Of a DNA stretch of 62,000 bases, positions 4,687-61,445 are shown in pieces; the first letter of the stretch is position 1, and each line of letters begins with the position of its first letter. Both the position numbers and the translations under genes were made by a program. Origin of the DNA: Tubiluchus corallicola (taxonomy: Eukaryota; Priapulida; Priapulimorpha; Priapulimorphida; Tubiluchidae); contig JAQGDQ010000468.1 in the NCBI GenBank assembly GCA_030141605.1, forward strand, positions 1 through 62,000, read 5' to 3'. Below the pieces are notes generated by a model, which saw nothing but the letters and a program-made list of their open reading frames with translations, was not told where the DNA came from and searched no databases.

Positions 4687-4712
4687 GCTTTTACAAAGCG
4701 AAATATTTTGCG
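4687..4712 (+). repeat. Dispersed intergenic repeat, left-end fragment
   Basis: GCTTTTACAAAGCGAAATATTTTGCG matches the left arm and AT palindrome of the repeat family described at 26248-26384. The inner and right parts are missing. It lies between the SusD gene 3' end and the thioesterase 5' end, in + orientation. Confidence 0.55.
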
Positions 4713-4740
4713 AATGATTTATTTCCACAAAAACATCAAA

Positions 4741-6570
4741 TCAATAGCCCGGGTTTTGTACCAGCTGGGGAGCTTTTTTTATCTCCTCTGTAGGGATCGG
4801 TATCCAGTACAGCTTTTCAGAAGCAGGCCCGCGCCTTTGCACATTGATTTGTCGCCATGTTGTCGTAATAACTCCATCCTCTTCCTGCTCAATAATATCT
4901 ACTCCCAGCGCATCTGTCAACACCTCATCCAATATCTTCCACCTTCGTACATCATACCAGCGCTTATCTTCAAAAGCAAACTCTATCTTGCGCTCATAAC
5001 GCAATGCTTTGGTAATATCTCCTATAAAATCAGGAAGTCCTGCCCTATTTCGAATCATATTTATATACGTGGTAGCCTCATCATGCTCCCCCAACCCAAT
5101 ACACGCCTCAGCATAATTTAATAATATTTCAGCATAACGAAACTCAATCCACACATTATCGTTATACTCGTCACGCCCAATAATATCATGATCCAGCATT
5201 TTTTTCATAAGATATCCTGTATAACCACCATTCCAATCCTCAATAGGACCTTTTCGTGTATCTATCCCGTATATATCTATGGTGTCTGTACCTTTAATGG
5301 TACGATGTGTGCGACGCTCATAAATACCAAGAGGATCTCTCTCTGCCAAATTATCAAAGCGAGACTGCCAGCGTGCACTATCGTATAAAACTGTTGCGTA
5401 AAACCTGGGCTCACGATTATAATACGGATTCTCGTTAAAATACTTACTCGACTTATTTATATAGTACCTGTCACTACTCAGATCAAAATGATCTTCAAAT
5501 GGAGTACCATCCTCCATTTGGTAATAATCTACAAAATTTTGAGTAGGGTTATTGCCCCCCCAACAGTTCAATCCATTGGGGCCGTTCCAAAGATTTGAGC
5601 GGTGTCTCGCCCCAACATCTTTCAAAAACATTTTACCCCATATAATTTCATTGCTCAGCAAATTTTCAGACCGAAAAAAATCATAATACTCCTCAGCTAC
5701 AACTTTTTGATCATCTCCTCCAAAATCCTCCAAAGAGTACGAATACCCGGGAAAAGTCATCAACTCATAGGCTGCTTCTTTAGCTCTTGTCCACAATGCA
5801 TTACGATCCGGGCCTATATATCCCACATACTCACTTTTTGCAGCACCATCAGCAGTAAGATCACTGGCTGCAAAAAGCAATATTCTTGACTTAAGAGCCA
5901 TTGCTGCACCTTGCGTTGCTCTCCCAAGCTCCATCTCATCCTTTGCTGCAAGGCGCTTTTGGGCCTCTTCACAATCTTCCAGTATGAAGTTGACAGTCTC
6001 TTCAAAAGTTGCGCGCTCTACCTGCAAAAAATCATCCCTTATTTTAAAGGGGGTTCTTATTATTGGTAGCCCCCCATAAGTGCGACACATCTGAGTATAA
6101 GCATAGGCCCTAAGAAAATATGCCTCTCCTTTTATTCTGTTAACCTGCTCCATTATGTTTTCTCTATCTATCTCCGGATAAGCTTTGGGCACATCATCAA
6201 TATTCGCCAAAAATATGTTGACCTTCTGAACTGCATTAAACAGCCACCATGAAGTATGCTGGTATCTTGTATTGCTTCCCCACGTACCCGTATTATCAGC
6301 AGTAATATTACCCTGCAAGTACACGTTACTGGCGTAAACATGAATGAAAAACGTCTCATCAGTAACTGCAGAAAGCATCATCTCATTCATCCCATGCCTC
6401 AGACTGTGATAACAATCGTTCAGGTAAGCCTTGGATAAATTGATATCCGACCACATATCCGCATCTGAATATTTATCTAATGGATTCTTATCCAGGATAC
6501 TATGATTGCACGACAATAACAATAACGGTGCAAGAGCAGAAATTGCGATACTTATTTTAAAGCTTCTCAT
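4741..6570 (-). CDS. SusD/RagB-family nutrient-binding outer-membrane lipoprotein
   Basis: 609 residues. The start MRSFKISIAISALAPLLLLSC gives a lipobox with the acylated Cys at position 21, so the protein is anchored at the outer membrane. The SusD pattern is seen: NPLDKYSDADMW near the N-terminus, TPR-like helices including IKGEAYFLRAYAYTQMCRTYGGLPII, and the C-terminal block NYAEACIGLGEHDEATTYINMIRNRAGLP ... LRYERKIEFAFEDKRWYDVRRWKI. It caps the SusC channel encoded 67 bases upstream and helps to capture an oligosaccharide or other ligand. The substrate cannot be read from the sequence, as no glycosidase lies beside the pair. Confidence 0.95.
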   Translation of the reverse strand: MRSFKISIAISALAPLLLLSCNHSILDKNPLDKYSDADMWSDINLSKAYLNDCYHSLRHGMNEMMLSAVTDETFFIHVYASNVYLQGNITADNTGTWGSNTRYQHTSWWLFNAVQKVNIFLANIDDVPKAYPEIDRENIMEQVNRIKGEAYFLRAYAYTQMCRTYGGLPIIRTPFKIRDDFLQVERATFEETVNFILEDCEEAQKRLAAKDEMELGRATQGAAMALKSRILLFAASDLTADGAAKSEYVGYIGPDRNALWTRAKEAAYELMTFPGYSYSLEDFGGDDQKVVAEEYYDFFRSENLLSNEIIWGKMFLKDVGARHRSNLWNGPNGLNCWGGNNPTQNFVDYYQMEDGTPFEDHFDLSSDRYYINKSSKYFNENPYYNREPRFYATVLYDSARWQSRFDNLAERDPLGIYERRTHRTIKGTDTIDIYGIDTRKGPIEDWNGGYTGYLMKKMLDHDIIGRDEYNDNVWIEFRYAEILLNYAEACIGLGEHDEATTYINMIRNRAGLPDFIGDITKALRYERKIEFAFEDKRWYDVRRWKILDEVLTDALGVDIIEQEEDGVITTTWRQINVQRRGPASEKLYWIPIPTEEIKKAPQLVQNPGY

Positions 6571-6637
6571 CGTTAAATAATTTTACACTAACTTAAACAC
6601 ATATACCTTTAAATTATTAATCATCTTCTCTCTAGGG

Positions 6638-9600
6638 CTAAAAAGCAACCTTTGCACCTATGGAGTAAGTTGCCATAAGCGGATAATTGTTCATCCCTCC
6701 TATTTCAGGATCCATAATATTATTGGCAGAATATATAAGAAACAGATTCTGCCCTGACACGTATACCTTTGCATCTTTCATTAATAGTCTTTCCTGAACT
6801 TTCTTGGGCAAAGTATACATCAATTGAAGGTTTTTTAATCTGCAATACGCTGTATTTTGATACATATATGTATTGGTATACCCTGTAAAATTGCTATAAT
6901 CCCCTTGCCTCCAATACTCCTCCTCACGTTCAAAAGCCCTTGGCTTTGACGCATTTATATTACTCTCTGTCCACCTCCCATCTGCATCATACATAAAATA
7001 ATTACCAGCAGTACCCTGTCTTAAATCAGTATATATTCGCCTCATGGAATTTCCAGCCCCCTGTACTAATGCGGACAAATCAAAACTCTTATACTTCATC
7101 ACTATACTCAGCCCATAAGTAATCTCAGGATCAGCTGTTTTATCAAACAACTGCTTATCAGCATCCGTAATCTTTCCATCCCCATTAAAATCTTCGAATA
7201 TAAGATCCCCGGGCCTTGCCCCCTCTACATGGGGATAACTGTCCAACTCATTTTGATCGCTAAAAACACCTATCACATTATAGAGAAGAGCTGTGCCTTG
7301 CGGATGTCCCGTAAGAACCTGATGCGGCTCATTCCTGGCAGGCTCATCAAACTCAACAATTTTATTTCTCGCAAAAGCAAAATTTCCACTCACAGAATAG
7401 GAGAAACTACCCCTCGTGTCTGTAAACCCTATAGAAGTATCAACACCTCTATTCTCTACAACACCATAGTTCTCATCTGGCAAAGATATTCCGGTAAAAT
7501 CGGGCACTGAAGCATTACGGGTAATAAGAATATCGCTCCTTCTTTCGAAAAAATACTCAAAATCAAAACTCACTTTGCTATTAAACCACTGTGACTCAAA
7601 GCCAACATTGGTTATATTTGCAACTTCCCAGGTTATGTACGGGTTGGGTGTTCCGTCCAGATACAGTCCGGCTAAGTATATCTTATCTTCATCCCAAACC
7701 ATGCCAGTGCCAAACGCATACTTTGCAATATACTGAAACGGAGATACCAGATCATTCCCCATTTGACCCCACGACACTTTTAATTTAAAGTAATCAGCCA
7801 CACCTATACTATTTCTCCAAAAATCCTCATCAGAAATACGCCAACCTGCCAAAATCCCCGGGAAATTCCCCCAACGTCCACTCTCCTTTGAAAAACGCAA
7901 TGACCCATCTCTGCGAAAAGTAAACTGAAACAGGTACCTCTCTTCAAAATTATAGCTTAGCCGGCCAAAGTAATTAATGCGGGAATCTATATCTACCCAC
8001 TCGTCATTACTCTTCTCTTCATCACCTCCGGCAAACAGGTACGGTATCTTGTCTGAAATAAAATACCTGCGATAAGCCTCAAAACCCTTGGCAACATACT
8101 CTGAACTCTCATAAGCAACGAAAACATCAATATTGTGCCTATCTTTAAAACTGTTTTGATAATCTGCTTTCAAATTATAGGTCTTTGTAGTAGAATCATC
8201 AGAATAATTTGTTAAACGGGGCTCGGATACACCTTTCTGACTCCCTATAAGAAACTCTGAACCATCCTCTTTCCCCGTGTTTCCAGCAGCTAAATAGGCA
8301 GCCTCATCAAGCTGGTAAAGAGTCCACGGCTTTTGAAAATTCTTCCTGATTTTGAAATACATATCATATGCAAAATAACCGCTTACGGTCAGCCCTTTTA
8401 CCCCCGGCACTTTCAACCTTGCCGTAACCTGGTTCTGACTTCTGTAGCGCTTATCATCATCAAAACCGGTCTCAAAGGTGGATGAAACGACAGGCTGGTC
8501 TCCATACTCAATATCAGGGCCGGGCAGGCCATTAGGGTAAACAGCGGTATTTGTGGGTTTACTTCTTATCATTGCACTAAATATAGAACCTGCCCCTTTG
8601 GTAGGAAACATTCTGTTCTCTTGCGAGCCATTAACATCAACACTGAGCCCCAAATAACTATTTATCTTAATATCAAGATTCACCCTGAGATTATACCGGC
8701 TATACGAAGTTGCAGAATTTTTATATGCTCCATCTGTATATTGGGAAGCAAACGAAGTATAATAAGAGGTATACTTCCCCCCTCCGTTAATAGATACAGT
8801 ATGGTGGTTCATTCTACTAAACTTTTTAAGCGTTGCATCAAACCAATCTGTATTCGGGTGTGTCCACGGAAACTCACCTGACTTATACTTCTCTATATCC
8901 TCTAGTGAGAATGTCATGTTCGACTCATCCTCTCCTTTATATGTTTGAACTTCACGTATCATTTGCGCATAAGTAGTGGCATCAGCCATCTCCGGCAGCA
9001 TAGTGGGTGTGCTCCACCCCTGATAAAACTCATACCTCAGTGTCGGAGCAGAATCCTCTACTCCCCGCTTGGTAGTAATAAGAATAACACCATTTGCCGC
9101 ACGGGAACCATAGATAGCAGCCGAAGCATCCTTTAGTACTGTCAGGCTTTCAATATCACTCGGATCAATAGAATTAAGGTCCCTTCCGGGAATACCATCT
9201 ACCACCACGAGAGGTGCGTTTTTGTCAATATCGTCGCCTGAATTAATTGTCGATGAACCACGAACCTTTATGTCTGCACCATCATACCCAGGCTCTCCAC
9301 TTCTCTGCTGTACAACTACACCGGGAAGACGCCCCGCCAGCGCATTAGAAACAACAGAAACAGGCGCACTGGTTAGCTCCTCATTCCGCACAGTCACTAC
9401 GGAACCTATAACATTCTCCTTCTTCTGCACTCCATAGCCAACAGCTACAACCTCTTCCAACCCGATTGCACTATATCGCATCAAAACATCTATACTGCTT
9501 TGTCCATCAATAGAAACCTCCTCAGTATCCATACCAATAAATGAAAACACCAAAACATCAGCACTCTCCCGTAACTCTAAACTGTAGTTCCCATTCATAT

Positions 9601-9862
9601 CGGATACAGTACCAATGGTGGTACCTTTTACAATAACTGTTACTCCAGGAATAGGTATTCCCTCCTGGTCTGTTACTTTACCCGAGACTCTACCCTGCTG
9701 TTCGTTCTCAACAATGCAGGCAACAACAGGTACTACATCCACCCCGGTACCCTTGGCCGGTAGCCCCCACATAAAAAAAATAGGAAATATAGTTTGGACA
9801 ATAACAACAACCTTGCAATAGTGTGTCACCATGCGGTATCCCTCAGGAGATTCTTTTTTCAT
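6638..9862 (-). CDS. SusC/RagA-family TonB-linked outer-membrane transporter
   Basis: 1074 residues. After a signal sequence (hydrophobic stretch VVVIVQTIFPIFFMWGLPAKG) comes a carboxypeptidase-D regulatory-like domain (GRVSGKVTDQEGIPIPGVTV, about residues 56-135), a TonB plug (VVAVGYGVQKKENVIGSV ... VVVDGIPGRDLNSIDPSDIE) and a large barrel with the family block DFNGDGKITDADKQ near the C-terminus. It imports a ligand captured by the SusD partner, with energy from TonB-ExbBD. It is the first gene of a two-gene transcript. No STN domain or adjacent ECF/anti-sigma pair is seen, so the regulator must be elsewhere. The region upstream was hit by an IS4 element. Confidence 0.95.
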   Translation of the reverse strand: MKKESPEGYRMVTHYCKVVVIVQTIFPIFFMWGLPAKGTGVDVVPVVACIVENEQQGRVSGKVTDQEGIPIPGVTVIVKGTTIGTVSDMNGNYSLELRESADVLVFSFIGMDTEEVSIDGQSSIDVLMRYSAIGLEEVVAVGYGVQKKENVIGSVVTVRNEELTSAPVSVVSNALAGRLPGVVVQQRSGEPGYDGADIKVRGSSTINSGDDIDKNAPLVVVDGIPGRDLNSIDPSDIESLTVLKDASAAIYGSRAANGVILITTKRGVEDSAPTLRYEFYQGWSTPTMLPEMADATTYAQMIREVQTYKGEDESNMTFSLEDIEKYKSGEFPWTHPNTDWFDATLKKFSRMNHHTVSINGGGKYTSYYTSFASQYTDGAYKNSATSYSRYNLRVNLDIKINSYLGLSVDVNGSQENRMFPTKGAGSIFSAMIRSKPTNTAVYPNGLPGPDIEYGDQPVVSSTFETGFDDDKRYRSQNQVTARLKVPGVKGLTVSGYFAYDMYFKIRKNFQKPWTLYQLDEAAYLAAGNTGKEDGSEFLIGSQKGVSEPRLTNYSDDSTTKTYNLKADYQNSFKDRHNIDVFVAYESSEYVAKGFEAYRRYFISDKIPYLFAGGDEEKSNDEWVDIDSRINYFGRLSYNFEERYLFQFTFRRDGSLRFSKESGRWGNFPGILAGWRISDEDFWRNSIGVADYFKLKVSWGQMGNDLVSPFQYIAKYAFGTGMVWDEDKIYLAGLYLDGTPNPYITWEVANITNVGFESQWFNSKVSFDFEYFFERRSDILITRNASVPDFTGISLPDENYGVVENRGVDTSIGFTDTRGSFSYSVSGNFAFARNKIVEFDEPARNEPHQVLTGHPQGTALLYNVIGVFSDQNELDSYPHVEGARPGDLIFEDFNGDGKITDADKQLFDKTADPEITYGLSIVMKYKSFDLSALVQGAGNSMRRIYTDLRQGTAGNYFMYDADGRWTESNINASKPRAFEREEEYWRQGDYSNFTGYTNTYMYQNTAYCRLKNLQLMYTLPKKVQERLLMKDAKVYVSGQNLFLIYSANNIMDPEIGGMNNYPLMATYSIGAKVAF

Positions 9863-10243
9863 AGATTTTCGTATTTTTATATTGACAACAAACCGCTTAA
9901 GCCCTCTAAACGCTTCTCTCCATCAACTTCACTCACATAACGTAAATATAAATAGTCAGTTTTAAACACAGGGAAACGCCAAGTTAAATAAATTAATTAT
10001 TATTTTCAGCACAAACACTCCTTATTTTTCATACTTATAATCTTGCATCCTGCCTCTGCGGTATTGATACTTTTTTGTAACCTGAGCGCTGTATATAGCA
10101 CCAAGTGGTATTTAAAACCTTTAGAATAAAAAAGAATCTCTCGAAACCTTTACAAGGCAATTAAAAATAGTAGTTTGATGATGTAAATGAGGATTTTGAC
10201 AAAATATTAATAAAAAGATGAATTTTGTAAAACTCTCAATATA
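9863..10243. other. Intergenic stretch upstream of susC-like gene
   Basis: No gene is seen. It should hold the promoter of the susC/susD-type pair on the minus strand, although I find no convincing TAnnTTTG element. The right part contains a dispersed repeat (10143-10237) preceded by a 29-bp remnant (10114-10142) that has both a left-end-like and a right-end-like sequence. The IS4 element begins directly after it. Confidence 0.6.
10143..10237 (+). repeat. Dispersed intergenic repeat, copy with inner deletion
   Basis: 95 bp. Left end GAAACCTTTACAAGGC, inner block GATGTAAATGAGGATTTTGA, then AATAAAAAGATGAATTTTGT and right end AAAACTCTC. The AT palindrome and the adjoining GGCTCAGACT block are missing. 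The right end is 6 bp from the IS4 element; these 6 bp are the target duplication of that element. Confidence 0.8.
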
Positions 10244-11600: not shown

Positions 11601-11767
11601 AATATAGATAACCCAGAATTTTATTTCTTAACACTATGTGCCTATCTTAGCGTACAAAATTGAAGTTAAAAATGGGGTAACCCGAAACCGATGTAACACA
11701 AAATGCTATTGCGGTCTTTAATTATGAACTTAATCTAGTGGTTATAAACTTAAAATTAATCAACCTA

Positions 11768-12379
11768 ATGAAAAGAAACCTTATTTTTTTAATGATTTTC
11801 GCTGTGGCTTTACTTCTGGCCTCTTGCGATAGCAAACCTGAATGGCAATCAATGTTTGACGGCAAAAGCATTGACAACATGACTATTAGGGGTAATGCAA
11901 CCTGGAAAGTTGAAGATGGTGTCCTCATAGGTGAAGGAGGCATGGGGCATATCTATTTTGGGCCTGACCTAACTGATATGGAAGCAAAAGGCACTTTTCG
12001 CCTCACAGACCAGGGAGGTGGCAGTAATAGTGGCTTTTACTTTCGTGCTGTAGAGCCTCCAAACAACCCAAATGGATGGCCACACGGCTATGAAGCTCAA
12101 ATCTGCCACAACCAAGAAGCACGCACAGGCTGGCTTTGGCTACCTGGAAAACCAACAGGGAAAGCATTGAAATTCGTGGGTAAGGATGACGAATGGTTTG
12201 ATTACAAAATCAGTGCCATTGGTAATGAGATAAAATTCTGGTTCAACAATAAACTGGTGATGCACTATACAGATGAAAACTCTACCTTCACCAAAGGACA
12301 CTTCGCTATTCAGGGGCATAACCCGGGAATGAAAATAGAAGCAAAAGACCTGTACTACCGGGATTTAAGCAAAAAATAG
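11768..12379 (+). CDS. DUF1080 (3-keto-disaccharide hydrolase/lyase type) lipoprotein
   Basis: ATG 11768 is chosen over an upstream ATG at 11738 because it yields a lipoprotein signal, MKRNLIFLMIFAVALLLASC, with Cys 20. The remaining 184 residues are one DUF1080 domain (concanavalin-like fold): WQSMFDGKSIDNMTIRGNATWKVEDGVLIGEGG, GGGSNSGFYFRAV, YEAQICHNQEARTGWLW, WFDYKISAIGNEIKFWFNNKLV and GHFAIQGHNPGMKIEAKDLYYRDL. Some Bacteroides members act on 3-keto-glycosides formed by Gfo/Idh-type oxidoreductases. Such an oxidoreductase is encoded 3.3 kb downstream at 15679, with a transporter between. The role in 3-keto-sugar use is an inference. Upstream DNA carries the end of an IS4 element. Confidence 0.9.
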   Translation: MKRNLIFLMIFAVALLLASCDSKPEWQSMFDGKSIDNMTIRGNATWKVEDGVLIGEGGMGHIYFGPDLTDMEAKGTFRLTDQGGGSNSGFYFRAVEPPNNPNGWPHGYEAQICHNQEARTGWLWLPGKPTGKALKFVGKDDEWFDYKISAIGNEIKFWFNNKLVMHYTDENSTFTKGHFAIQGHNPGMKIEAKDLYYRDLSKK

Positions 12380-12396
12380 AAAAACCTATCAACTTT

Positions 12397-12502
12397 GAAA
12401 CCTTTGCAAGTCAAAATATTTTGACTTAAACCGTAATCTACAGATGTAAATAAAGACTTTAAAGAAGATTTTAACAAAAATATTAACTCTTGCAAAAGTC
12501 TC
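12397..12502 (+). repeat. Dispersed intergenic repeat with perfect 20-bp palindrome
   Basis: 106 bp. Left end GAAACCTTTGCAAGTC runs into AAGTCAAAATATTTTGACTT (12408-12427), a perfect palindrome. The inner block is GATGTAAATAAAGACTTT and the right end TTGCAAAAGTCTC. A further right-end-like sequence, TGCAAAAAAGGTCTC, follows at 12509-12523. It lies between the convergent DUF1080 and rubrerythrin genes. Confidence 0.85.
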
Positions 12503-12588
12503 GAATTGTGCAAAAAAGGTCTCACACTGCAAATGTGGGGAATATCACGAAAGATAATGACACCTCCCGCATATCGACTGAATATAGC

Positions 12589-13315: not shown

Positions 13316-13449
13316 GCACCTTTACTAAACTAAAAAATCGGGTTAGGCCAAAAAATAATCTGCAAAAAAGCCATAGCTTACTGATATAAATGAAGATCTT
13401 GAAAAAAAAATGACAAAAAATAATAAAAAGACAAATATTGCAAAGCTTT
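13316..13449 (+). repeat. Dispersed intergenic repeat
   Basis: About 134 bp. It begins GGCACCTTTACTAAAC, has CTTACTGATATAAATGAAGA and AATAAAAAGACA, and ends ATTGCAAAGCTTT. A second copy follows 43 bp further on. Together the two copies fill most of the 480-bp gap between rubrerythrin and the symporter gene. Confidence 0.75.
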
Positions 13450-13492
13450 AAAAATAAACTTTCGATATTTGTGTAATATGACAATATGGTAT

Positions 13493-13608
13493 GAAACCTT
13501 TGCAAAGCGAGTTATTCTAAAAAAATCAATTAAAAACCATAATTTACTGACGTGAATTAAGCCTTTAAAGAAAACTTTAATAAAAAGATGAGATTTTGCA
13601 AAGCCCTC
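13493..13608 (+). repeat. Dispersed intergenic repeat
   Basis: 116 bp. Left end GAAACCTTTGCAAAGC, block AATTTACTGACGTGAATTAA, then AATAAAAAGATGAGATTTTG and right end GCAAAGCCCTC. It ends 77 bp before the symporter start codon. Confidence 0.85.
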
Positions 13609-15390: not shown

Positions 15391-15516
15391 GAAACATTTG
15401 TATGGCAAAACACCTTAGTTAAAACTGAAAAAAATCGATGAAAAATCACATCTTATCAGTATAAATGAGAATTCTAACAAACATACCGATAGGAAAATGG
15501 ATCTTGCAAAGATCTC
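15391..15516 (+). repeat. Dispersed intergenic repeat
   Basis: 126 bp. Left end GAAACATTTGTATGGC, blocks TTATCAGTATAAATGAGAAT and GGATCTTGCAAAGATCTC at the right end. The rest of the 331-bp gap between the symporter and oxidoreductase genes is AT-rich and shows no gene or clear promoter. Confidence 0.75.
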
Positions 15517-17037: not shown

Positions 17038-17059
17038 GCTGATACTGATTGACACAAAG

Positions 17060-17879: not shown

Positions 17880-17930
17880 GGAACCTTTGCAAAACTTACC
17901 TTTTTGTTAAATATTTTCTTAAAAAGTCTC
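17880..17930 (+). repeat. Dispersed intergenic repeat, short form with both ends
   Basis: 51 bp. Left end GGAACCTTTGCAAAAC, a short AT core TTAAATATTTTCTT and right end AAAAAGTCTC. The inner blocks are missing. It lies between two divergent genes. Confidence 0.6.
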
Positions 17931-17980
17931 CTTGAAAACTACCACTTTGCACCCCCACCTCTTAACTTTTACCAGCCTGT

Positions 17981-18010
17981 TTTGTGTTATTTGAGGTATT
18001 GCTAACTTTG
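17981..18010 (+). promoter_or_regulatory. Bacteroidota-type promoter of the mltG gene
   Basis: TTTG at 17981-17984 and TAACTTTG at 18003-18010, with an 18-bp spacer, match the -33 TTTG / -7 TAnnTTTG pattern of the phylum's housekeeping sigma factor. The start codon is 17 bases further on at 18028. Confidence 0.6.
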
Positions 18011-21083: not shown

Positions 21084-21206
21084 GAAACCTTTGCAATGCG
21101 AAAGAGTTGTACAGGGCTAGAAAAGGTTTGACAAAAACCGCAGTTTACTAATGTAAATGAGTGTTTTGACGAAAACATTAACAAAAATGAGTTCTGAAAA
21201 GACCTC
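21084..21206 (+). repeat. Dispersed intergenic repeat
   Basis: 123 bp. Left end GAAACCTTTGCAATGC, block GTTTACTAATGTAAATGAGT, then ACATTAACAAAAATGAGTTC and right end GAAAAGACCTC. The 420-bp gap between the divergent FtsE-like and TPR genes holds nothing else that I can name. Confidence 0.85.
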
Positions 21207-26182: not shown

Positions 26183-26617
26183 ACACAGAACCTTCGCATA
26201 ACTACTATACGGCTGTAACAAAAATCTCGCCTCTAAACTAACACTATAAAACCTTTGCAAAGCAAAATATTTTGGCTCAGACTTGAAGAAAAACTCGATA
26301 AAAAACCACTCCTTATCGACACAAATAATGGTTTTGAAAAAAATGACAAAAATATTAATAAAAAGATCTGCTTGAAAAAGTCTCAGGATAAGTTTTGCAA
26401 AGACATTTTGCTGCGTATACAGGTAATAATATCCACCCTCCTGTGAAAGAAAATTATTATATTTGCACACCAACAGAGGCACATTTTGAATGCCACAAAA
26501 ATCCTTTTGAAATAGAAAGGCACAAAAAAAGAAAATGGTATCAAAATTACCATCTCTTGAATGGGAAAATATGGAAACCCAAATGCTTCCCATAACTTTT
26601 AAATTAAATTCGACACA
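26183..26617. other. Intergenic stretch upstream of gyrB
   Basis: 435 bp without a convincing gene. It holds a full dispersed repeat (26248-26384), a second right-end-like sequence (TTTTGCAAAGAC, about 26392-26403) and a -7-like element TATATTTG at 26458-26465 without a clear -33 element. If that element is used, gyrB has a leader of about 145 bases. Confidence 0.5.
26248..26384 (+). repeat. Dispersed intergenic repeat, near-consensus copy
   Basis: 137 bp, the best example of the family. Left end AAAACCTTTGCAAAGC, near-palindrome AGCAAAATATTTTGGCT, CAGACTTGAAGAAAAACTCG, then AATATTAATAAAAAGAT and right end GAAAAAGTCTC. The two ends are inverted copies of each other (CCTTTGCAAA against the reverse complement of TTTGCAAAAG in other copies). 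It lies between two + genes. Confidence 0.88.
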
Positions 26618-28751: not shown

Positions 28752-28865
28752 GAGACATTTACTGTGCTAAGTCCCTTTGATTAAAAATGAAAAAAGGCGA
28801 TGAAAACTACAGCTCGTTTATGTAAACGAGGATTTTAATAAAAATATAAATTTTGAAAAAGTCTC
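28752..28865 (+). repeat. Dispersed intergenic repeat with perfect inner hairpin
   Basis: 114 bp. It begins GAGACATTTACTGTGC, contains CTCGTTTATGTAAACGAG (a perfect 18-bp palindrome at the site of the usual CTTACTAATGTAAATGAG block) and ends TTTTGAAAAAGTCTC, 27 bp before the next start codon. The remainder of the 310-bp gap after gyrB shows only a small imperfect hairpin near 28610-28635. Confidence 0.78.
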
Positions 28866-31725: not shown

Positions 31726-31866
31726 AGGCCTTTGCAAAGCAAAGTATTTTAGCTTAGATTAAGGAAAAATTCTATGAAAAACCACTCCTCGTTGGCACAA
31801 ATAAAGGCCCTATAAAAAGATTTCGACAAAAATACTATCTAAAAAGATGAGTTTCGTAAAAGTCTC
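31726..31866 (+). repeat. Dispersed intergenic repeat
   Basis: 141 bp. Left end AGGCCTTTGCAAAGCAAAGT, then TCTATGAAAAACCACTCCTC, TAAAAAGATGAGTTTCGT and right end AAAAGTCTC. It occupies most of the right half of the 331-bp gap between the divergent sulfotransferase and M20 genes. The left half shows nothing. Confidence 0.85.
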
Positions 31867-33377: not shown

Positions 33378-33519
33378 AAAACCTTTGCAAAGAAAAATAT
33401 TTTGGCTCAGACTGAGGAAAGGCTCAATGAAAAGCCTCAACTTAATAATGTAAATGAAGAGCTTAAAAGAGAGCTCCGAAGAAAACATTAATAAAAAAGA
33501 CGAACTATGCAAAAACTTC
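33378..33519 (+). repeat. Dispersed intergenic repeat
   Basis: 142 bp. Left end AAAACCTTTGCAAAGAAAAA, then ATTTTGGCTCAGACTGAGGA, TTAATAATGTAAATGAAGAG, ACATTAATAAAAAAGACG and right end TGCAAAAACTTC. A small hairpin AGGCT / AGCCT is seen inside. The gap to the glutamine synthetase gene (33280-33686) otherwise holds only the terminator. Confidence 0.87.
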
Positions 33520-36030: not shown

Positions 36031-36170
36031 AGCCCTTTCCAAAATGAAAACACCTTGGCTATCGCTGAAAATACCCAGTGAAGACTTTCAGTCCGCTCGC
36101 ATAAATGAAGGCTTTGAACAAGGCTCCCTCGAAAACCACCAATACAAAAGACAAACTCTGCAAAGGCTTT
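36031..36170 (+). repeat. Dispersed intergenic repeat
   Basis: 140 bp, a diverged copy. Left end AGCCCTTTCCAAAATG, then CACCTTGGCTATCGCTGAAA, GCATAAATGAAGGCTTTGAA and right end CTCTGCAAAGGCTTT. It lies between two convergent genes. Confidence 0.7.
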
Positions 36171-38284: not shown

Positions 38285-39057
38285 CTATAATATTAACAAT
38301 GATAGACATTCAGAAATACAATAACTCTAATTTTAGTGTGTAAAGATATATTATTTTTTGTTAAAAAAACCTTTTGCAAGCAAAAAACCTGATCCAGACT
38401 AAGGAAAATACCGTGGGTTACTGATATAAATAAGGATTTTAATGTAAAAAGGACTCTCGGAGCAGTTTTGATGCATTAATAATCCATCATCCCACAATAT
38501 GCTTATACCTATATGCTTTTGAGCTCTTAAAAAAAATTACTTAATACCATCACCCGACCAAGCATGCGATGCCACCACCTTTATTATCACTAAAAGCAAT
38601 GGAAACTGGCACATCGAATGATGATTTACACACTTAGTAAAACCCCTCCTTTTTCATTGGCTACAGGTACTGGACTTTGAAGCGATGTACGCGTCCCAGA
38701 ATTCCCTTATTTCGTAGGTTCAGTTATTGGCTTGCCTATAGTCGGTGACCATAAACACTCTCACTTATAGCAACCCCAGCTTGCTTAATTTTACCAAACT
38801 GTACTCAGGTTTCCAGAAGACGCCATTTATAGTTGTTCTGATGTAGACTATTCAAAATCGTAAATAAAGTACCTATTTCCATATTTTACGATTCGTGTAC
38901 TCAATCCACCTCGATACCTATTTCCTATTGCAGGTAATACACACCGTCTGCTTCAAAAGAGACTGCCGGCATACATGCTATTGCATGAACATTTCAGAAG
39001 CGGTTACCCAATTTTCAAAACTCAACCCTCTTAACCAGCAACTTACAAACATATCTT
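38285..39057. other. Long gene-free stretch between chitinase and sulfatase
   Basis: 773 bp. It holds a dispersed repeat (38366-38458). From 38620 to 39050 the composition is more mixed than in other gaps but no frame of useful length is seen. A 9-bp inverted pair AATCGTAAA (38856-38864) / TTTACGATT (38885-38893) and a twice-used word TACCTATTTCC are visible. On the minus strand short frames (for example one with RGGLSTRIVKYGNRYFIYDF) are cut by stops, as in a decayed gene, but I cannot name it. Confidence 0.5.
38366..38458 (+). repeat. Dispersed intergenic repeat
   Basis: 93 bp. Left end AAAACCTTTTGCAAGC, then CCTGATCCAGACTAAGGAAA, TTACTGATATAAATAAGGAT and right end AAAAAGGACTCTC. The AATAAAAAGATGA block is missing. 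Confidence 0.78.
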
Positions 39058-44409: not shown

Positions 44410-44541
44410 GAAGCCTTTACAAAACAAAACACTTTGGCTTGCACCAAAAAGAATCAATGAAAGCTTTCGGCTCGCTTATTAATCAAAACTTTAAAAAATA
44501 TTCTCACAAAAAATTAAAAAAATAAGCTTTGTGAAATGCTC
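44410..44541 (+). repeat. Dispersed intergenic repeat
   Basis: 132 bp. Left end GAAGCCTTTACAAAACAAAA, then CTTTGGCTTGCACCAAAAAG, CTCGCTTATTAATCAAAACT and right end TTTGTGAAATGCTC. It stands between two minus-strand genes, so it is antisense to both. Confidence 0.78.
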
Positions 44542-45703
44542 AAACCTTAGGTAAAATATTTTTCAATGCCCTTGAAAACAATATCAGAGACAACGGAAAA
44601 ACAAGCCAATGAAATGACTGCGGAGAAAATACTGCCAAAAGATAAAACAGGCCTAAAACTACCACAGTAAACCTGTGATAATATATAAACCACCTCCTTT
44701 TATGCTTAAACAACAAAAAAAAAGCAAACACAAAATGCATAGGCAGAGCCCATATAACATTTAGATTCCACTCTGTTGTAGGATGCTCTGAAAAAAATGT
44801 GAGGAATGAAAGAACTATTCCAACTATTCCAAAACCAAAATAAACTACAAAATCTGTCCACACACTATGCCTGCAAGCCAAAAACCCCTTTGCCCCCGCA
44901 AACAAAGCAATCAGTGTCAGCCCAATAATAATAACAGCAGGAGAAAACGGATCGAACACAACACCCTTCTCAGATGCAGCAAGAACAGCTACCACAGGCC
45001 CACAAAGTGGTTGCTCTCCGGTAGAACGCACCACATAGGCCCGCTCAAAATTCCCGGAAAGATGCTCAGGGAGAAACATCTTTTCATATGAAGTTATTAC
45101 CTCATCCGCAGGAATGCCCAAAACAACTTTTATACCAAAATCAAACCATGTCTTCCGGGGAACACATGTCTCCACCATCTGCCGAAAAGTGTATTGCGGT
45201 AAACCATCATCCACCCAGTGAACATTAGAACCCAATACCTCCTCTACTTTATCCCTAAGCTTCGTAGCACAATTATTAAAAAAATAGCTATACCTGTATC
45301 TCCTGTTCTCCGGGCGATTATCATCACGCAGTATATCCAGCAACATCTGCTTCTCATCGTGTGATAGATTCAATTTTTGCTCACTGACACTAACACCCCT
45401 GCTCCTACAACTACTTAAAAAATAACTATATCTATCTATCCCGGACATATAATCTGTCTCACCCTTTGCAAAACGATAGGCAAAATTAGGTGAGCTAAAA
45501 TCAAAACGCCCATAATCAAATATAAGGTCAATACCTGACCTGGGATCATGTACACGAAACCCGCTGTGTCCAAAGAAAGTGTAAACCTCATCCCCACTTC
45601 CAGATGTAATAAGGCTTATCTCCGCTTCTGGAGATAACAATATATTAGCCATGGCTCCCCTTACAAACAGGAGTAGCAACAATGTATATAATAACTGTCT
45701 CAC
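44540..45703 (-). CDS. DUF4105 membrane protein
   Basis: About 388 residues. GTG 45703 is preferred to GTG 45712, as it gives a tidy signal (VRQLLYTLLLLLFVRGAMA). The periplasmic part matches DUF4105: YTFFGHSGFRVHDP, DLIFDYGRFDFSSPNFAYRFAKGETDY and RYSYFFNNCATKLRDKVEE, where the conserved His, Asn and Cys suggest a papain/NlpC-like hydrolase fold. Four to five membrane segments make up the C-terminal third. The function is unknown; an envelope peptidase-like role is only suggested. The stop lies inside the end of a dispersed repeat. Confidence 0.85.
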   Translation of the reverse strand: MRQLLYTLLLLLFVRGAMANILLSPEAEISLITSGSGDEVYTFFGHSGFRVHDPRSGIDLIFDYGRFDFSSPNFAYRFAKGETDYMSGIDRYSYFLSSCRSRGVSVSEQKLNLSHDEKQMLLDILRDDNRPENRRYRYSYFFNNCATKLRDKVEEVLGSNVHWVDDGLPQYTFRQMVETCVPRKTWFDFGIKVVLGIPADEVITSYEKMFLPEHLSGNFERAYVVRSTGEQPLCGPVVAVLAASEKGVVFDPFSPAVIIIGLTLIALFAGAKGFLACRHSVWTDFVVYFGFGIVGIVLSFLTFFSEHPTTEWNLNVIWALPMHFVFAFFLLFKHKRRWFIYYHRFTVVVLGLFYLLAVFSPQSFHWLVFPLSLILFSRALKNILPKV

Positions 45704-45724
45704 ACTACACACTTCAATCCCGCA

Positions 45725-47778: not shown

Positions 47779-47906
47779 AAGGCCTTTGTAAAACAAAAGA
47801 CTCTGGCTCGGATTGATAAAAAACTAAACTAGAAAAAACCACAACTTACTAATAATAAATGAGGATTCTGACAAAATTAATTAACCAAAAGATGAAACTT
47901 GCGCTC
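47779..47906 (+). repeat. Dispersed intergenic repeat
   Basis: 128 bp. Left end AAGGCCTTTGTAAAACAAAA, then CTCTGGCTCGGATTGATAAA, CTTACTAATAATAAATGAGG, TTAACCAAAAGATGAAACTT and right end TTGCGCTC. It lies between two minus-strand genes. Confidence 0.8.
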
Positions 47907-48991: not shown

Positions 48992-49294
48992 TCAGTCCTT
49001 CAGCTCTTTCTCAATCTCTCTGCTCATATCGTTTGCGTCACGCTCAATCTCTCTACTCATATCGCTTGCATCACGACTAACAGAATCGGAAACTTCATTT
49101 ATATCCTTACGAATACCATCGGTATGTTCTTCAAGCTCACGCTTTATGTCATTAGTAGCTTTTTTAAACTCCCTCATCCCTTTACCTATGGTCTTTGCAA
49201 TATCAGGTATACTTCTTGCTCCAAAAAACAAAAGGGCCAACAACATCACCAATACCAACTCCGAACCACTAACAAAAAGCATAACACTCATCAT
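48992..49294 (-). CDS. tatA: TatA/B-like protein with long charged tail
   Basis: ATG 49294 is chosen because AAAGGAGTGG stands a few bases before it; earlier starts at 49321 are less good. The 100-residue protein has one membrane segment with the Tat hairpin ELVLVMLLALLFFGARSIPDIAKTIGKGMREFKKATNDI, the hallmark of TatA/TatB. The tail is strongly charged and contains an 11-residue repeat (DASDMSREIER / DANDMSREIEK). It is probably the pore-forming part of the twin-arginine translocase, which fits the Tat-signal oxidoreductase at 15679. No tatC gene is present in the window. Confidence 0.88.
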   Translation of the reverse strand: MMSVMLFVSGSELVLVMLLALLFFGARSIPDIAKTIGKGMREFKKATNDIKRELEEHTDGIRKDINEVSDSVSRDASDMSREIERDANDMSREIEKELKD

Positions 49295-53543: not shown

Positions 53544-53664
53544 TTATCTTTAAAATTCAGAAATTGAAACACACCCCAAACCCTGCTCTAAAAAAACAAA
53601 ATCGCTTTTACGTAAAGCATAAGCTCTATATAATTTTAATATCAGATCTTAATACAGGCCACCC

Positions 53665-55071: not shown

Positions 55072-55174
55072 TTTTTTTTAATCCGTTAAACCGGTAAGCT
55101 AAACGCTCGCTCAAACTTTCAAACAATAAGAAACCGCACTCTTGTTCATTCGTCAGGAAATTTAACCTCTCGAA

Positions 55175-56437: not shown

Positions 56438-56662
56438 CCGTACACTATGCGCTTTAAAACTACACAACAATTACACTACACCACACAACAACCTCACACA
56501 GCAAATAACTTGCTGCAAATAAACCTGCTAAGCACTTATGCCGCAGGTCAAAAATAGCCTGAAATGTGCGTTAACTCACTATCATTCTTACTTCACGAAA
56601 ATAACATGAATTTTAACACTGGACAAACAACAAACACAAAAAACATAAAAAATACACATTTC

Positions 56663-56676
56663 CGTGTCCGTACACG
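56663..56676. promoter_or_regulatory. Candidate LacI-type operator between uxaE and the regulator gene
   Basis: CGTGTCCGTACACG is a 14-bp near-palindrome (12 of 14 positions symmetric) in the 312-bp gap between divergent starts. It ends 18 bp before a TAAATTTG -7 element (56695-56702), hence over the -33 zone of the regulator gene's promoter. That place would suit self-control by the LacI-family protein. Confidence 0.45.
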
Positions 56677-56694
56677 AAAAACAAAAATCTTTTA

Positions 56695-56702
56695 TAAATT
56701 TG
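56695..56702 (+). promoter_or_regulatory. Probable -7 element of the LacI-family gene
   Basis: TAAATTTG matches TAnnTTTG and lies 47 bp before the start codon at 56750. No clear TTTG is present at -33; that zone is occupied by the candidate operator. Confidence 0.45.
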
Positions 56703-56749
56703 CTGTGAAAATTTAAACTTCGGACACACATAGCTTCTCCATAAAGACT

Positions 56750-57811
56750 ATGAGAGTAGAAAATAACAACATACGTATTAAAGATATTGCAAAAAAAGCC
56801 GGGACATCCACTGGAACTGTTGACAGGGTCATACACAACCGGGGGGAAGTTTCTGGAGCAACACAGGAAAAAATCCTCCGAATTATTAAAGAACTTGATT
56901 ACAAGCCAAACATACTTGCCCGAAGTCTCGCCTCAAAAAAAAGCATTGTAATAGCCACACTCCTGCCTCTATCTATATCGAAAGAATCCTACTGGGGGAG
57001 GCCAATAATAGGAATAAACAAATCTGTTTCAGAACTGAATCAGTACGGCATAACCCTTAAAAAATATTTCTTCGACCCTGACAACCCTTCAACATTTACT
57101 GAAAAAACCACTCTTATACTGAAACAGCACCCTGACGGAGTAGTAATAGCCCCGTCTGTATCCAGAGAAGCCTCTATCTTTGTCGACCTGCTTGATAAGA
57201 AAAATATCCCCTATGTATTTATAGATTCTGACATTGAAAATGCAAACCCTGTAAGCAGAATTGGGCAAGACTCGTTTCAGAGTGGTTACCTTTCAGCCAA
57301 ACTGCTGGACTACACCCTTCCTGACAACGCACTGGTCTTAATAATACACATCGCTAAAGAACTTGACAACCAGGATCATCTCCTTCAGAGAGAAAAAGGA
57401 TTCTGCAACTACTTTACAAGCCTGAAAAATCGGAGGTTAACACTCAAAAAAATTGAAGTAGCAGGAGAAAAAAGTGAGATAGCAAATAGTATAATTCAAA
57501 ATGGAACTCATATGTCATCAATAGGAGGCATCTTTGTCACCAACTCCAAAGTGCACCATGTAGCCAGGCTTTTTCCAAAATTTCCAAAACTGCCGCGAAT
57601 AGTAGGATATGACCTTACACCTGACAATATAAAATTACTGAAAGCCGGTAAAATTGACTTTCTCTTATGTCAAAAACCCGAAAAACAGGGGTACAATGCA
57701 ATAAACGCCCTGTTTGAACATATTGTGAAAAAACAACCCGTAAAACTACAGAACTACACGCCAATAGATATTATTACCAAAGAAAACCTGAAATATTACA
57801 CATCATTTTAA
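56750..57811 (+). CDS. LacI-family transcriptional regulator of the hexuronate locus
   Basis: 353 residues. The N-terminal helix-turn-helix with hinge is seen in IRIKDIAKKAGTSTGTVDRVIHNRGEVS followed by YKPNILARSLASKKS (residues about 8-62). The rest is a periplasmic-binding-protein-like sensor domain (VIATLLPLSISKESYWGRPIIGI, GVVIAPSV, PYVFIDSDIENANPVSRIGQDSFQSGYL). The GTVDRVIH form is common among Bacteroidota regulators of this type. It probably senses a uronate or its product and controls the flanking genes; this is inferred from position. Confidence 0.9.
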   Translation: MRVENNNIRIKDIAKKAGTSTGTVDRVIHNRGEVSGATQEKILRIIKELDYKPNILARSLASKKSIVIATLLPLSISKESYWGRPIIGINKSVSELNQYGITLKKYFFDPDNPSTFTEKTTLILKQHPDGVVIAPSVSREASIFVDLLDKKNIPYVFIDSDIENANPVSRIGQDSFQSGYLSAKLLDYTLPDNALVLIIHIAKELDNQDHLLQREKGFCNYFTSLKNRRLTLKKIEVAGEKSEIANSIIQNGTHMSSIGGIFVTNSKVHHVARLFPKFPKLPRIVGYDLTPDNIKLLKAGKIDFLLCQKPEKQGYNAINALFEHIVKKQPVKLQNYTPIDIITKENLKYYTSF

Positions 57812-57898
57812 TCATAACAAACCTTATAACAATCAACAAACTTTATAACATTTGCTGATCACTATAGATAATAAGAAAACACTTTAACAAAAAACAAC

Positions 57899-58042
57899 GA
57901 GGCTTTTTATAAAACAAATGAGAACTCGGCTCAGATTAAAAAAACATGATGAAAAATCATAACTTATCGGTATAGAATGAAGACTTTGAAGATATTTTTG
58001 ACAAAAAAACAGTAAACAGACAGATGAGTTATACAAAAGCTC
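57899..58042 (+). repeat. Dispersed intergenic repeat
   Basis: 144 bp. Left end GAGGCTTTTTATAAAACAAA, then CTCGGCTCAGATTAAAAAAA, CTTATCGGTATAGAATGAAG and right end ACAGATGAGTTATACAAAAG. It ends about 32 bp before the next start codon. Confidence 0.78.
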
Positions 58043-58074
58043 AACTCTAACACTCTAAAATTTGATATCACATT

Positions 58075-58926
58075 ATGAATAAAATACCATTTGAAGACCT
58101 AAAAGGGAAAGTATGTGTTATAACCGGAGGCGCCGGGGTTATAGGAACATCAATTGTAAAAGCACTGGCCTCGGTAAATGCGAAAATAGCAATCATTGAC
58201 ATTAACGGAGAGATAGCAGAAAAAAGCGCAAATAAGCTCACATCTGCATATAGCACTGACGTGATTGGACTGAAAGCAGATGTACTTGACAAAAAATCCC
58301 TTGAAGCGGCTAAAAAGAAAATTAATGACAAGTTGGGAGCCATTGACATTCTTATTAATGGCGCAGGAGGAAACTCGCCCCAAGCAACAACAAAAGTGGA
58401 GCAAATACTTAAAAAAGACATTGATAACCTTGAAGACACATTTTATGGGCTGCAAGTGGAGGCATTCGATAAAGTATTTGCCTTAAACTTTAAAGGGACA
58501 CTTCTTCCCACAATGGTTTTCACTCAGGATATGCTGAAAAAAAAATCGGGCGCTGTGCTCAACATATCATCGATGAACTCATACAACCCTTTAACAAAAA
58601 TACCTGCATACTCTGCCGCAAAAGCATCTGTTAATAACTTTACTCAATGGCTTGCTGTGCATCTGGCTAAAGTTGGTATCAGAGTGAATGCTATAGCTCC
58701 AGGTTTCTTCATAACAGAACAAAATCGCTTCCTGGTAATGGATGAGAAAACCGGCAATTACTCGGCACGAGGACAAAAAATAGTGAACAACACTCCAATG
58801 GGTAAATTTGGCAAGCCAGACGACCTGCAAGGAACGTCCCTCTACCTGCTTTCCGACATATCTTCATTTGTGACCGGAGTCGTTATTCCTGTTGATGGAG
58901 GCTACAGCGCTTTTGGAGGGGTGTAA
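58075..58926 (+). CDS. uxuB: SDR-family fructuronate reductase (D-mannonate oxidoreductase type)
   Basis: 283 residues. Rossmann loop TGGAGVIG (residues 17-24), NGAGGNSP (about 100-107, with the long insertion VEQILKKDIDNLEDTFYGL typical of SDR-type mannonate oxidoreductases) and the catalytic Ser-Tyr-Lys in ISSMNSYNPLTKIPAYSAAKAS. The C-terminal FITEQNRFLVMDEKTGNYSARGQ is also usual for that branch. It likely reduces D-fructuronate to D-mannonate with NAD(P)H, linking the isomerase and epimerase of the locus to the 2-keto-3-deoxygluconate route. No mannonate dehydratase (uxuA) is in the window. Confidence 0.87.
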   Translation: MNKIPFEDLKGKVCVITGGAGVIGTSIVKALASVNAKIAIIDINGEIAEKSANKLTSAYSTDVIGLKADVLDKKSLEAAKKKINDKLGAIDILINGAGGNSPQATTKVEQILKKDIDNLEDTFYGLQVEAFDKVFALNFKGTLLPTMVFTQDMLKKKSGAVLNISSMNSYNPLTKIPAYSAAKASVNNFTQWLAVHLAKVGIRVNAIAPGFFITEQNRFLVMDEKTGNYSARGQKIVNNTPMGKFGKPDDLQGTSLYLLSDISSFVTGVVIPVDGGYSAFGGV

Positions 58927-59053
58927 CTCTTTGTAAAAAAACCTCATTACTATAACATAAATAGCAGTGATGAAACATCAATATAAAAAAAACGGAATAG
59001 CTCAAAGGATATAGAATATTTAAAAAAACACACTTGAAAATTCAAAAATTATT

Positions 59054-60349
59054 ATGTGGAAAAATGTAATTGTTGCACAATCAGGAGGCCCCTCTCCGGT
59101 AATTAACAATTCGCTGCGCGGAATTGTGGAAACATGCAAAATGTTTCCCGAATACTTTGGCACTATATATGGAGGATGGCACGGAATAGAAGGAGTACTA
59201 AAAGAGGAGCTATTAAACCTTTCTAAGCAGGATGTTGATGAAATAGCACTACTCAGAACAACCCCTGCGGCGGGGAGCATAGGAACATGTCGGTATAAAC
59301 TAAAGGACACTCAAAAAGAAGACTTCAGTCGTATTATAGAGGTCTTTAAAGCTCATAAAATTGGATACTTTTTCTACATAGGTGGCAACGACTCACAGCA
59401 TACGGCATTTAAAGTAAGTGAACTGGCAAACCAGCATGGACTTGAAATTATAGCTGTTGGCGTGCCCAAAACTATCGACAATGATGTTGGAGACAGTGAA
59501 TTTAAGCTGATTGACCACACGCCTGGCTACGGCTCCGTTGCAAAATATTGGTCTCACATAGTACAGAATATCAACGAAGAAAATGCAGGCTCATCCCCCG
59601 CAGATCCAGTAATTGTGCTCCAGGCTATGGGGCGCAGAATAGGCTACATACCGGCAGCAGCACGCTTAGCCGACCCAAACCGAGAAATGCCTCTGCAAAT
59701 ATATATGACAGAATCAAAAATGTCTGTAGAGGAGATGGCAGACAACGTAAATGAACAGGTCAAAAAAGATGGACGATGTATCGTAGTGGTAAGCGAGGGG
59801 TTTGATGTAGGAAGCACGGGCGAAGTAAAAGACTCATTTGGACACACCTCTTTTGGATCAAGCAAAACAACTGCTCAGCAATCCATTGTTAACTACCTCA
59901 ACAACATCGGAATAAAAGCCAAAGGCGCTGCCCGCGGACAAGTCCCCGGAACAGACCAGCGACACAATATGATCTATGCATCAACAGTCGATCTGGACGA
60001 AGCGTATAAAGTCGGACAAAAAGCTGTCGATATAGCAATGAACGATGGTAACGGATGGATGGCTACAATCCTCCGTAAACCCGGATTTATATACAACATC
60101 TATTACGACAAAGTACCACTGGAAAAAGTGGCTCTCTCTGAGCGCTTCTTTAAAAAAGAGTGGATTGCTAAAAGCAGAATAGATGTAACTGACTCCTTTA
60201 TTAACTATATTCGCCCACTAATAGGAGAAGACTGGGTTAGCATTCCAGTAATTAATGGTATTCAACGCTTTACTAGATTCAAACCTCTGTTTGCAGAACA
60301 GAAACTTGATAAATACACTCCACAGGCATATCGCAATTTAAATCTTTAA
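59054..60349 (+). CDS. Phosphofructokinase-family enzyme, PPi-dependent type
   Basis: 431 residues. Family blocks are VAQSGGPSPVINNSLRG, IYGGWHGIEGVL, FYIGGNDSQHTAFK (residues 110-114) and VPKTIDND (137-144), then VLQAMGRRIGYIPAAARLAD. The Asp in GGNDS and the Lys in PKTIDND are the residues that mark pyrophosphate-dependent enzymes, in place of Gly and Gly in ATP-dependent ones. It phosphorylates fructose 6-phosphate or possibly another sugar phosphate. Its place inside a hexuronate operon, with a HAD phosphatase next to it, makes a special substrate possible. Confidence 0.88.
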   Translation: MWKNVIVAQSGGPSPVINNSLRGIVETCKMFPEYFGTIYGGWHGIEGVLKEELLNLSKQDVDEIALLRTTPAAGSIGTCRYKLKDTQKEDFSRIIEVFKAHKIGYFFYIGGNDSQHTAFKVSELANQHGLEIIAVGVPKTIDNDVGDSEFKLIDHTPGYGSVAKYWSHIVQNINEENAGSSPADPVIVLQAMGRRIGYIPAAARLADPNREMPLQIYMTESKMSVEEMADNVNEQVKKDGRCIVVVSEGFDVGSTGEVKDSFGHTSFGSSKTTAQQSIVNYLNNIGIKAKGAARGQVPGTDQRHNMIYASTVDLDEAYKVGQKAVDIAMNDGNGWMATILRKPGFIYNIYYDKVPLEKVALSERFFKKEWIAKSRIDVTDSFINYIRPLIGEDWVSIPVINGIQRFTRFKPLFAEQKLDKYTPQAYRNLNL

Positions 60350-60408
60350 TAGCAAGGTCTGAAAAGCCCAATTGAACAATTATAAAAACAATATAACTCT
60401 ATACAAAT

Positions 60409-61290
60409 ATGAACCTACAACAACAAATAAAAGACCTGGCTCCAACCAAAGAATTCTTTATCGGTATCGACTCCGATGGATGTGTATTTGACTCAATGGA
60501 GCCCAAACAAAAGGAGTTCTTTTGCCCAAATGTACTACGCTACTTTGAGCTACTCCCTGTATCAAAAATAGCTCGTGAAACTTGGGAGTTTGTTAACCTC
60601 TACTCCAAAACAAGAGGATTAAACCGATTTCAGGCACTGGACTACTTTTTCGACTTGCTAAAAAAACGTCCACAGGTTTTAAACAAAAACATAAAAATAT
60701 ATGACACTGCTCCATTGAAAAAATGGTTAGCAAACGAAACAAAACTGGGAAATCCGGCGCTGGAAGAATACGCTGTGAAAATCAAAACTCCGGAAATAGA
60801 CAGACTCCTCAGATGGTCATTACAGGTAAATATAGAAATAGGTAAATGGGTGAAAAACCTAAAACCTTTTACCTACGTGGAGAAATGCCTAAAAAAAACT
60901 GAAGATAAAACTGATGCGCTGGTTATCTCGCAAACTCCAGGAGAAGCGCTTGATCGTGAATGGAAAGAGAATAACATTGACAAATATGTTCGTGTCATCT
61001 GCGGACAGGAGTATGGAACAAAAACGGAGCACCTGAAATATGCTGCAAAAGGGAAATACCCTTCCGATAAAATACTAATGATCGGAGATGCTCCCGGCGA
61101 TATGAGTGCGGCCAAAGCAAATAACGCCCTGTTTTACCCTATCAACCCCGGACATGAAGAAGAATCGTGGGAACGGTTGTACTGCGAATCACTCGATAAA
61201 TTCTTCACAGGCAAATATGCAGGAGAATATGAACAATCACTCATAGACCTGTTTGAGAAGCATCTTCCTGAAACACCAACATGGAAGTAA
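60409..61290 (+). CDS. HAD-family hydrolase (probable phosphatase)
   Basis: 293 residues. Motif I is in FIGIDSDGCVFDSM (Asp 21 nucleophile, Asp 23 acid/base), motif II Ser/Thr in LVISQTPGEAL, motif III Lys in TKTEHLKYAA and motif IV in ILMIGDAPGDMSAA. A helical cap is inserted between motif I and motif II (about residues 40-160), which selects the substrate. It likely removes phosphate from a sugar phosphate. It lies 60 bases after the phosphofructokinase gene and before a LarA-like gene, all on one strand. Confidence 0.87.
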   Translation: MNLQQQIKDLAPTKEFFIGIDSDGCVFDSMEPKQKEFFCPNVLRYFELLPVSKIARETWEFVNLYSKTRGLNRFQALDYFFDLLKKRPQVLNKNIKIYDTAPLKKWLANETKLGNPALEEYAVKIKTPEIDRLLRWSLQVNIEIGKWVKNLKPFTYVEKCLKKTEDKTDALVISQTPGEALDREWKENNIDKYVRVICGQEYGTKTEHLKYAAKGKYPSDKILMIGDAPGDMSAAKANNALFYPINPGHEEESWERLYCESLDKFFTGKYAGEYEQSLIDLFEKHLPETPTWK

Positions 61291-61304
61291 GCTGTAAACA
61301 CTGT

Positions 61305-61445
61305 AAAATCCTTGCTAAGCAAACGGTTTTAATGCAGACTGAAGAAAACTCAATAAAAAAAGCTGCAACTTACTAACGTAAATGATGACTCCGAAAAGAG
61401 TTTTGACAAAAACGTTAACAAAAAGATGAACTTTGTAAAGGTCTC
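61305..61445 (+). repeat. Dispersed intergenic repeat
   Basis: 141 bp. Left end AAAATCCTTGCTAAGCAAAC, then ATGCAGACTGAAGAAAACTC, CTTACTAACGTAAATGATGA, GTTAACAAAAAGATGAACTT and right end TTGTAAAGGTCTC. It ends 32 bp before the LarA-like start codon, within a presumed operon. Confidence 0.86.

Follow-up and report, generated by a model that had tools for sequence, protein, structure and literature searches.

The window analysed here, i.e., the whole stretch of 62,000 nucleotides, lies on a contig of 177,544 bp (C1716) that carries the bacterial genes gyrB, mutS and secDF and a gene for a SusC-family protein. By a list of 39 open reading frames (ORFs) taken as genes, in which shorter overlapping ORFs were not counted, 16.8% of the window is intergenic, and in this intergenic DNA lie 17 copies of a repeat. 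These copies very probably belong to a family of non-autonomous miniature inverted-repeat transposable elements (MITEs) of the IS5 type, which long ago colonised the intergenic regions of a Prolixibacter-like bacterium and has decayed since, and on the contigs measured most copies appear to share one orientation relative to replication. The copies are given below with their detection by a profile of the window's own copies (own-copy profile) and by a profile built only from the copies of other genomes (independent profile):

10143..10237, plus strand: decayed MITE copy, found by both profiles; the profile extends its start to about 10115
12397..12502, plus strand: decayed MITE copy with an internal deletion, found by both profiles
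13316..13449, plus strand: decayed MITE copy, found by the own-copy profile, missed by the independent profile at E<1e-3
13493..13608, plus strand: decayed MITE copy, left end exactly GAAACCTTTGCAAAGC, found by both profiles
15391..15516, plus strand: decayed MITE copy, found by both profiles
17883..17986, minus strand: weak MITE copy, additional to the earlier list and the only one on the minus strand, missed by the independent profile at E<1e-3
21084..21206, plus strand: decayed MITE copy, found by both profiles
26248..26384, plus strand: decayed MITE copy upstream of gyrB, found by both profiles
28752..28865, plus strand: decayed MITE copy downstream of gyrB, found by both profiles
31726..31866, plus strand: decayed MITE copy, found by both profiles
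33378..33519, plus strand: decayed MITE copy, found by both profiles
36031..36170, plus strand: decayed MITE copy, found by the own-copy profile, missed by the independent profile at E<1e-3
38366..38458, plus strand: short decayed MITE copy, the weakest of the 16, found by the own-copy profile, missed by the independent profile at E<1e-3
44410..44541, plus strand: decayed MITE copy, found by the own-copy profile, missed by the independent profile at E<1e-3
47779..47906, plus strand: decayed MITE copy, found by both profiles
57899..58042, plus strand: decayed MITE copy, found by the own-copy profile, missed by the independent profile at E<1e-3
61305..61445, plus strand: decayed MITE copy, found by both profiles

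A preliminary description of this DNA had listed sixteen long copies, and each of them was found at its place. The own-copy profile recovers 16/16 with E-values from 2.9e-25 to 1.5e-9, a result that is circular by construction as the profile was built from the same 16 copies; in 20 dinucleotide shuffles and in the reversed and the complemented window, the best match has an E-value of 1.3. The independent profile finds 11 of the 16 at E<1e-3 and nothing elsewhere in the window, missing the copies at 13316, 36031, 38366, 44410 and 57899. The additional copy at 17883-17986 scored 15.7, 22.5, and 32.3 bits in three profile searches. From the about four short copies also proposed, only one could be placed, at position 4687 where the earlier range starts, and with 10 bits and an E-value of 0.063 it is not established. 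The location between genes was borne out, since the elements, 2,012 bases in all, share only 2 with the 39 ORFs (copy 44410..44541 overlaps the end of the ORF at 44540-45712 by 2 bases), and the two ends are inverted copies of each other as described. The listed copies measure 93–144 bp in the window, an intact element is about 140 bp long (L041), and none contains a transposase. The density of 17 copies in 62 kb had led to an estimate of over a thousand copies per genome; this density agrees with that of three bacterial-looking 10-kb stretches (L026-L028; seven copies) from a grid of 20 stretches on one contig, while the thousand itself is an extrapolation. A search of the whole assembly, in which 40 of 124 candidates were scored, gave at least 41 matches, with further copies outside the window on several contigs. 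The preliminary description was silent on the strand, although all 16 listed copies lie on one.

The assignment to old, decayed IS5-type MITEs is based on the terminal inverted repeats (TIRs; GAGACCTTTGCAA), on 5-bp target duplications and on an IS5-family element with the same ends. The consensus of the copies has strong matches (E≤7e-15) in four of 393 sampled Bacteroidales genomes (G277, G285, G343, and G188), and the other 389 show no match at this threshold, with two candidates scored per genome and a sample of which the composition is not known. At E≤1e-3, 75 of the 393 genomes match, of which only these four were counted; the next genome (G352) has a 40-nt match with an E-value of 1.1e-8, and the remaining listed ones are mostly short A/T-rich fragments. 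A class-wide search yielded no match at E≤1e-7 in 395 genomes (two candidates scored per genome), a plasmid collection contained no match, and one locus of a Prevotellaceae genome (L001) had no profile match, that genome containing only short fragments (best E 0.001 over 28 nt). The copies in the other genomes are much less decayed, with a mean pairwise identity of 81% compared to 57% for 31 copies of the window's own genome, the latter value including 12-bp flanks. They terminate in GAGACCTTTGCAA or variants thereof, and direct repeats of 5 bp (ATTTT, ATATT, and AAATT, for example) frequently border them. Both ends are present in 13 of the 23 copies available; there the flanks agree at 54 of 65 positions compared to 35.4 (standard deviation 3.3) after shuffling, a value not attained in any of 2000 shuffles, and the duplication is perfect at 7 of the 13. 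In the own genome a residual duplication is found (66/145 matches, 49.9 expected, z 3.2, for a length of 5 bp and an offset of 0) for those 29 of 34 full-length copies whose ends are clearly placed; 60 combinations of length and offset were examined, and the other high values share the same 5-bp diagonal. The IS5-family element lies in genome G285 (C146). It measures 1,317 bp, is enclosed by two TIRs that face each other, has AATTT at either side and encodes a transposase of 362 amino acids, which with 249.6 bits exceeds the cut-off of 140 of the NCBIfam IS5 model and also matches Pfam DDE_Tnp_1 and DUF772. Of the element's last 25 bases 24, and of its first 16 bases 15, agree with the consensus built from the MITEs of the other genomes.

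Within the window 16 of the 17 copies are on the plus strand. They lie between genes in every arrangement, the orientation of the copies being independent of gene direction, and the independent profile gives 11 plus-strand and no minus-strand copies. At four-fold sites the plus strand of the window has a GC skew of -0.10 and -0.24 for genes on the two strands; the sign does not differ between plus- and minus-strand genes, either in the window or in the stretches L028, L030, L032, L033, and L034 (L026 and L027 provided plus-strand ORFs only for this test), which indicates that the skew is replicative. The strand with negative GC skew usually represents lagging-strand sequence, and the plus strand of the window looks like the lagging strand. 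Over five contigs, the left-to-right strand of the element is on the negative-skew strand in 46 of 50 copies, with concordant to discordant copies amounting to 25:1 on C1716, 6:1 on C197, 3:0 on C1995, 5:0 on C1719, and 7:2 on C1820. Counting clusters once gives 37/41, and outside the window the figure is 30/33; among the matches listed in the assembly-wide search, three more copies on the same five contigs are concordant and none is discordant. BLAST matches outside the window agree with the majority of their contig in 34 of 38 cases, compared to 26.5 (standard deviation 1.9; 2/20000) for random orientation. By the sign of the skew over these five contigs the orientation of most copies appears to follow the direction of replication, as is the case for Tn7 with TnsE. 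Matches to a left-end pattern (44 forward and 59 reverse; 12 and 14 in the control) were not used for orientation because the two ends resemble each other and because many of the matches lie on contigs not known to be bacterial. One further stretch (L031; G000:C723:1-10000) contains four copies, two per orientation, at a GC skew near zero and is possibly located near an origin or terminus.

As to how the copies came to lie there, an IS5-type transposase would have acted in trans on the TIRs, excising the element and pasting it into A/T-rich 5-bp targets, as the shared ends and the duplications suggest. The orientation might have been set at insertion if the replication fork imposed a fixed direction on the two unequal ends, for which Tn7 with TnsE is the precedent; this fork-coupled insertion appears the likeliest cause of the orientation, with about an even chance of being the right one.

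Several observations weigh against a MITE family of this origin and orientation. The orientation is not absolute, 4 of 50 copies being discordant. The 2:2 copies on C723 were left out for their near-zero skew and, if counted as weakly positive, give 48/54; C1700 carries five minus- and two plus-strand copies, and C1299 and C1 are at 1:1 each. Outside the window, the sign of the skew comes from single 10-kb stretches (C1716, C197, C1995, C1719) or from three (C1820), and one 3-kb piece of C197 (L005) has a total skew of +0.107 compared to -0.24/-0.27 at four-fold sites in L030. The younger copies of G285 have a positive GC skew on the element strand at 10 of 16 loci and a negative one at 6 of 16, which is a weak test, and their orientation relative to the skew is undecidable because four-fold sites there mostly follow gene direction. 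The window copies alone, with their earlier boundaries, show no 5-bp signal (25/75 matches, 26.3 expected), a relative of the transposase was not found in the window's assembly (a weak test, in which an empty answer shows nothing), and a motif search did not detect a beta-clamp-like motif in the G285 transposase.

One could argue that the orientation is an artefact of detection, in that strand-asymmetric mutation destroys oppositely inserted copies faster, and the window is indeed strongly skewed (4-kb GC skew from -0.298 to -0.008, AT skew up to +0.223). For this reason, the consensus of the other genomes was evolved in both orientations under the substitution pattern of the own copies. At the observed decay, the profile of the other genomes detects 262 same- and 270 opposite-oriented copies of 300 each, and the own-copy profile 174 and 156; at 0.8-fold decay the numbers are 299 and 298 for the former and 257 and 250 for the latter. 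At 1.2-fold decay, the own-copy profile detects 70 compared to 48, which again weighs against our reading, and the profile of the other genomes 140 compared to 147. A lean towards the same orientation is thus confined to the own-copy profile and is far too small for 46:4, and the independent profile gives the 11:0 ratio in the window, making an artefact very improbable. REP/REPIN-like or IS200/IS605-derived repeats, moved by a Y1 transposase in single-stranded form, would directly explain an orientation along the lagging strand; yet true TIRs and 5-bp target duplications are present in the other genomes, and an IS5-type element of the DDE kind with the same ends exists. Single-strand elements are not known to make a 5-bp target duplication, and the duplications leave this explanation with hardly any probability. 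It is just as hard to credit a structured RNA that is conserved, or a miniature element that codes for protein. The G277 copy and several G285 copies look translatable, one frame staying open over long stretches, but synonymous sites are not favoured among the changes: in 12 copies of the relatives, there is no synonymous excess and no effect of codon position, synonymous and nonsynonymous changes being at chance level in all three frames, in line with the preliminary description, which had seen no conserved reading frame. The orientation, which does not follow transcription, speaks against both an RNA and a coding element. The search for covariation which that description had proposed gives no structure, RNAalifold predicting 0 pairs on 31 copies, and with Rfam nothing in the window but two tRNAs reaches the gathering score.

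A rival of more weight, if still an unlikely one, keeps the MITE origin and assumes random insertion, after which copies in the 'wrong' orientation were lost through a polar effect on replication, candidates being a weak fork pause or a site that binds protein or guides segregation. In that case the orientation seen today would point to a function. Such selection would fit the strong bias among old copies and the younger G285 copies without a clear bias, the latter being the weak test described above. Against it stand the divergence of the own copies (57% mean pairwise identity, 12-bp flanks included) and their folding as single-stranded DNA, for which four own copies do no better than shuffles (z -0.42 to -1.72), while two young copies fold through their TIRs (z -2.61 and -2.26). 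Moreover, no polar motif is evident in the alignments, beyond which no search was made.

IS5-type MITEs are already known as a kind, and the preliminary statement that no named family resembles these repeats is partly mistaken: IS5-family elements and the named MITE BrickBuilt share these termini. For this particular family, the literature searched contains no name. According to the available part of the source, BrickBuilt of Porphyromonas gingivalis (TIR GAGACCTTTGCA / TGCAAAGGTCTC) has an IS5-type TIR, is intergenic, lacks a transposase and occurs in Bacteroidales as well, but it differs by tandem 23-nt units between leader and tail, by a length of up to 991 nt and by 19 copies in one strain (PMC4596501). 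The likeness observed is one of the termini, and none of the seven tandem arrays in the window lies inside a copy. The same excerpt describes ISNme1 of Neisseria meningitidis (TIR GAGACCTTTGCAAAA / TTTTGCAAAGGTCTC) and the ATR element of Neisseria, a MITE likewise assigned to an IS5-family parent by its TIRs; both belong to another phylum, 19 copies of ATR are reported, and the likeness to the window family is one of the TIR (PMC4596501). The R0/R2 repeats of Pseudomonas fluorescens SBW25 are also intergenic and MITE-like with inverted ends matching a resident insertion sequence, but in the accessible part of that study it is the orientation of flanking genes (tail-to-tail excess) that was analysed and not orientation relative to replication (PMC2718517). 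For Tn7 with TnsE, a review, likewise available in part, states that the orientation bias of insertion follows the direction of replication, as appears to be the case in the window family; Tn7 differs in being autonomous and not a MITE, and a contact of TnsE with the beta-clamp is reported (PMC5371812). For the orientation of transposable elements in bacteria, the review refers to Gomez et al. 2014 (PMC5371812).

It is possible, although somewhat less than evenly probable, that a DDE (IS5-type) MITE made fork-oriented insertions in about a thousand copies, the fossils of which map the direction of replication along the chromosome. If true, it would be the first demonstrated case of a MITE acting as Tn7 does with TnsE, judged by the literature searched, in which no report of a replication-oriented MITE family was found, most subscription journals lying outside the search. 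No MITE family is known to follow replication, and the replication-oriented insertion sequences of Gomez et al. are reportedly autonomous elements and not MITEs. The family represents a large natural data set for asking if transposases of the ordinary IS5 type sense the fork, and if it is insertion or selection that determines orientation, and its copies could mark the direction of replication in a draft genome.

The assembly that contains the window comprises 343,548,820 bases in 2,344 contigs and is therefore not a bacterial genome alone. GyrB shows up to 86% identity to the best database match and 83% to three Prolixibacter proteins; judged by these identities, the host of the repeats is probably a bacterium from the neighbourhood of Prolixibacter. 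On the 975-kb contig C1820 the stretches at approximately 800–910 kb (L026-L028, between L025 and L029) look bacterial, with a GC content of 0.39–0.41 and a GC skew of +0.22 to +0.27. Repeats occur in two of these three samples, and the other 17 stretches have weak skew and no repeat; the bacterial-looking part is flanked by stretches resembling host DNA and is perhaps a misjoin or inserted DNA. Matches with equal score and query range were observed at C1830:44359, C1721:80431, C1700:337421, and C1658:38535, and also at C1853:3373 and C1719:290964. Equal matches on several contigs suggest that the assembly contains the bacterial genome redundantly, at the level of strains, and one locus may be represented by more than one contig. 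Finally, at C1716:149989-150036 a 16-bp unit, AAAACCTTTGCAAAAC, occurs three times in tandem, the last of these units forming the left end of copy 150021, and positions 49010-49075 of the window contain a 33-bp unit twice, the two being 90% alike.

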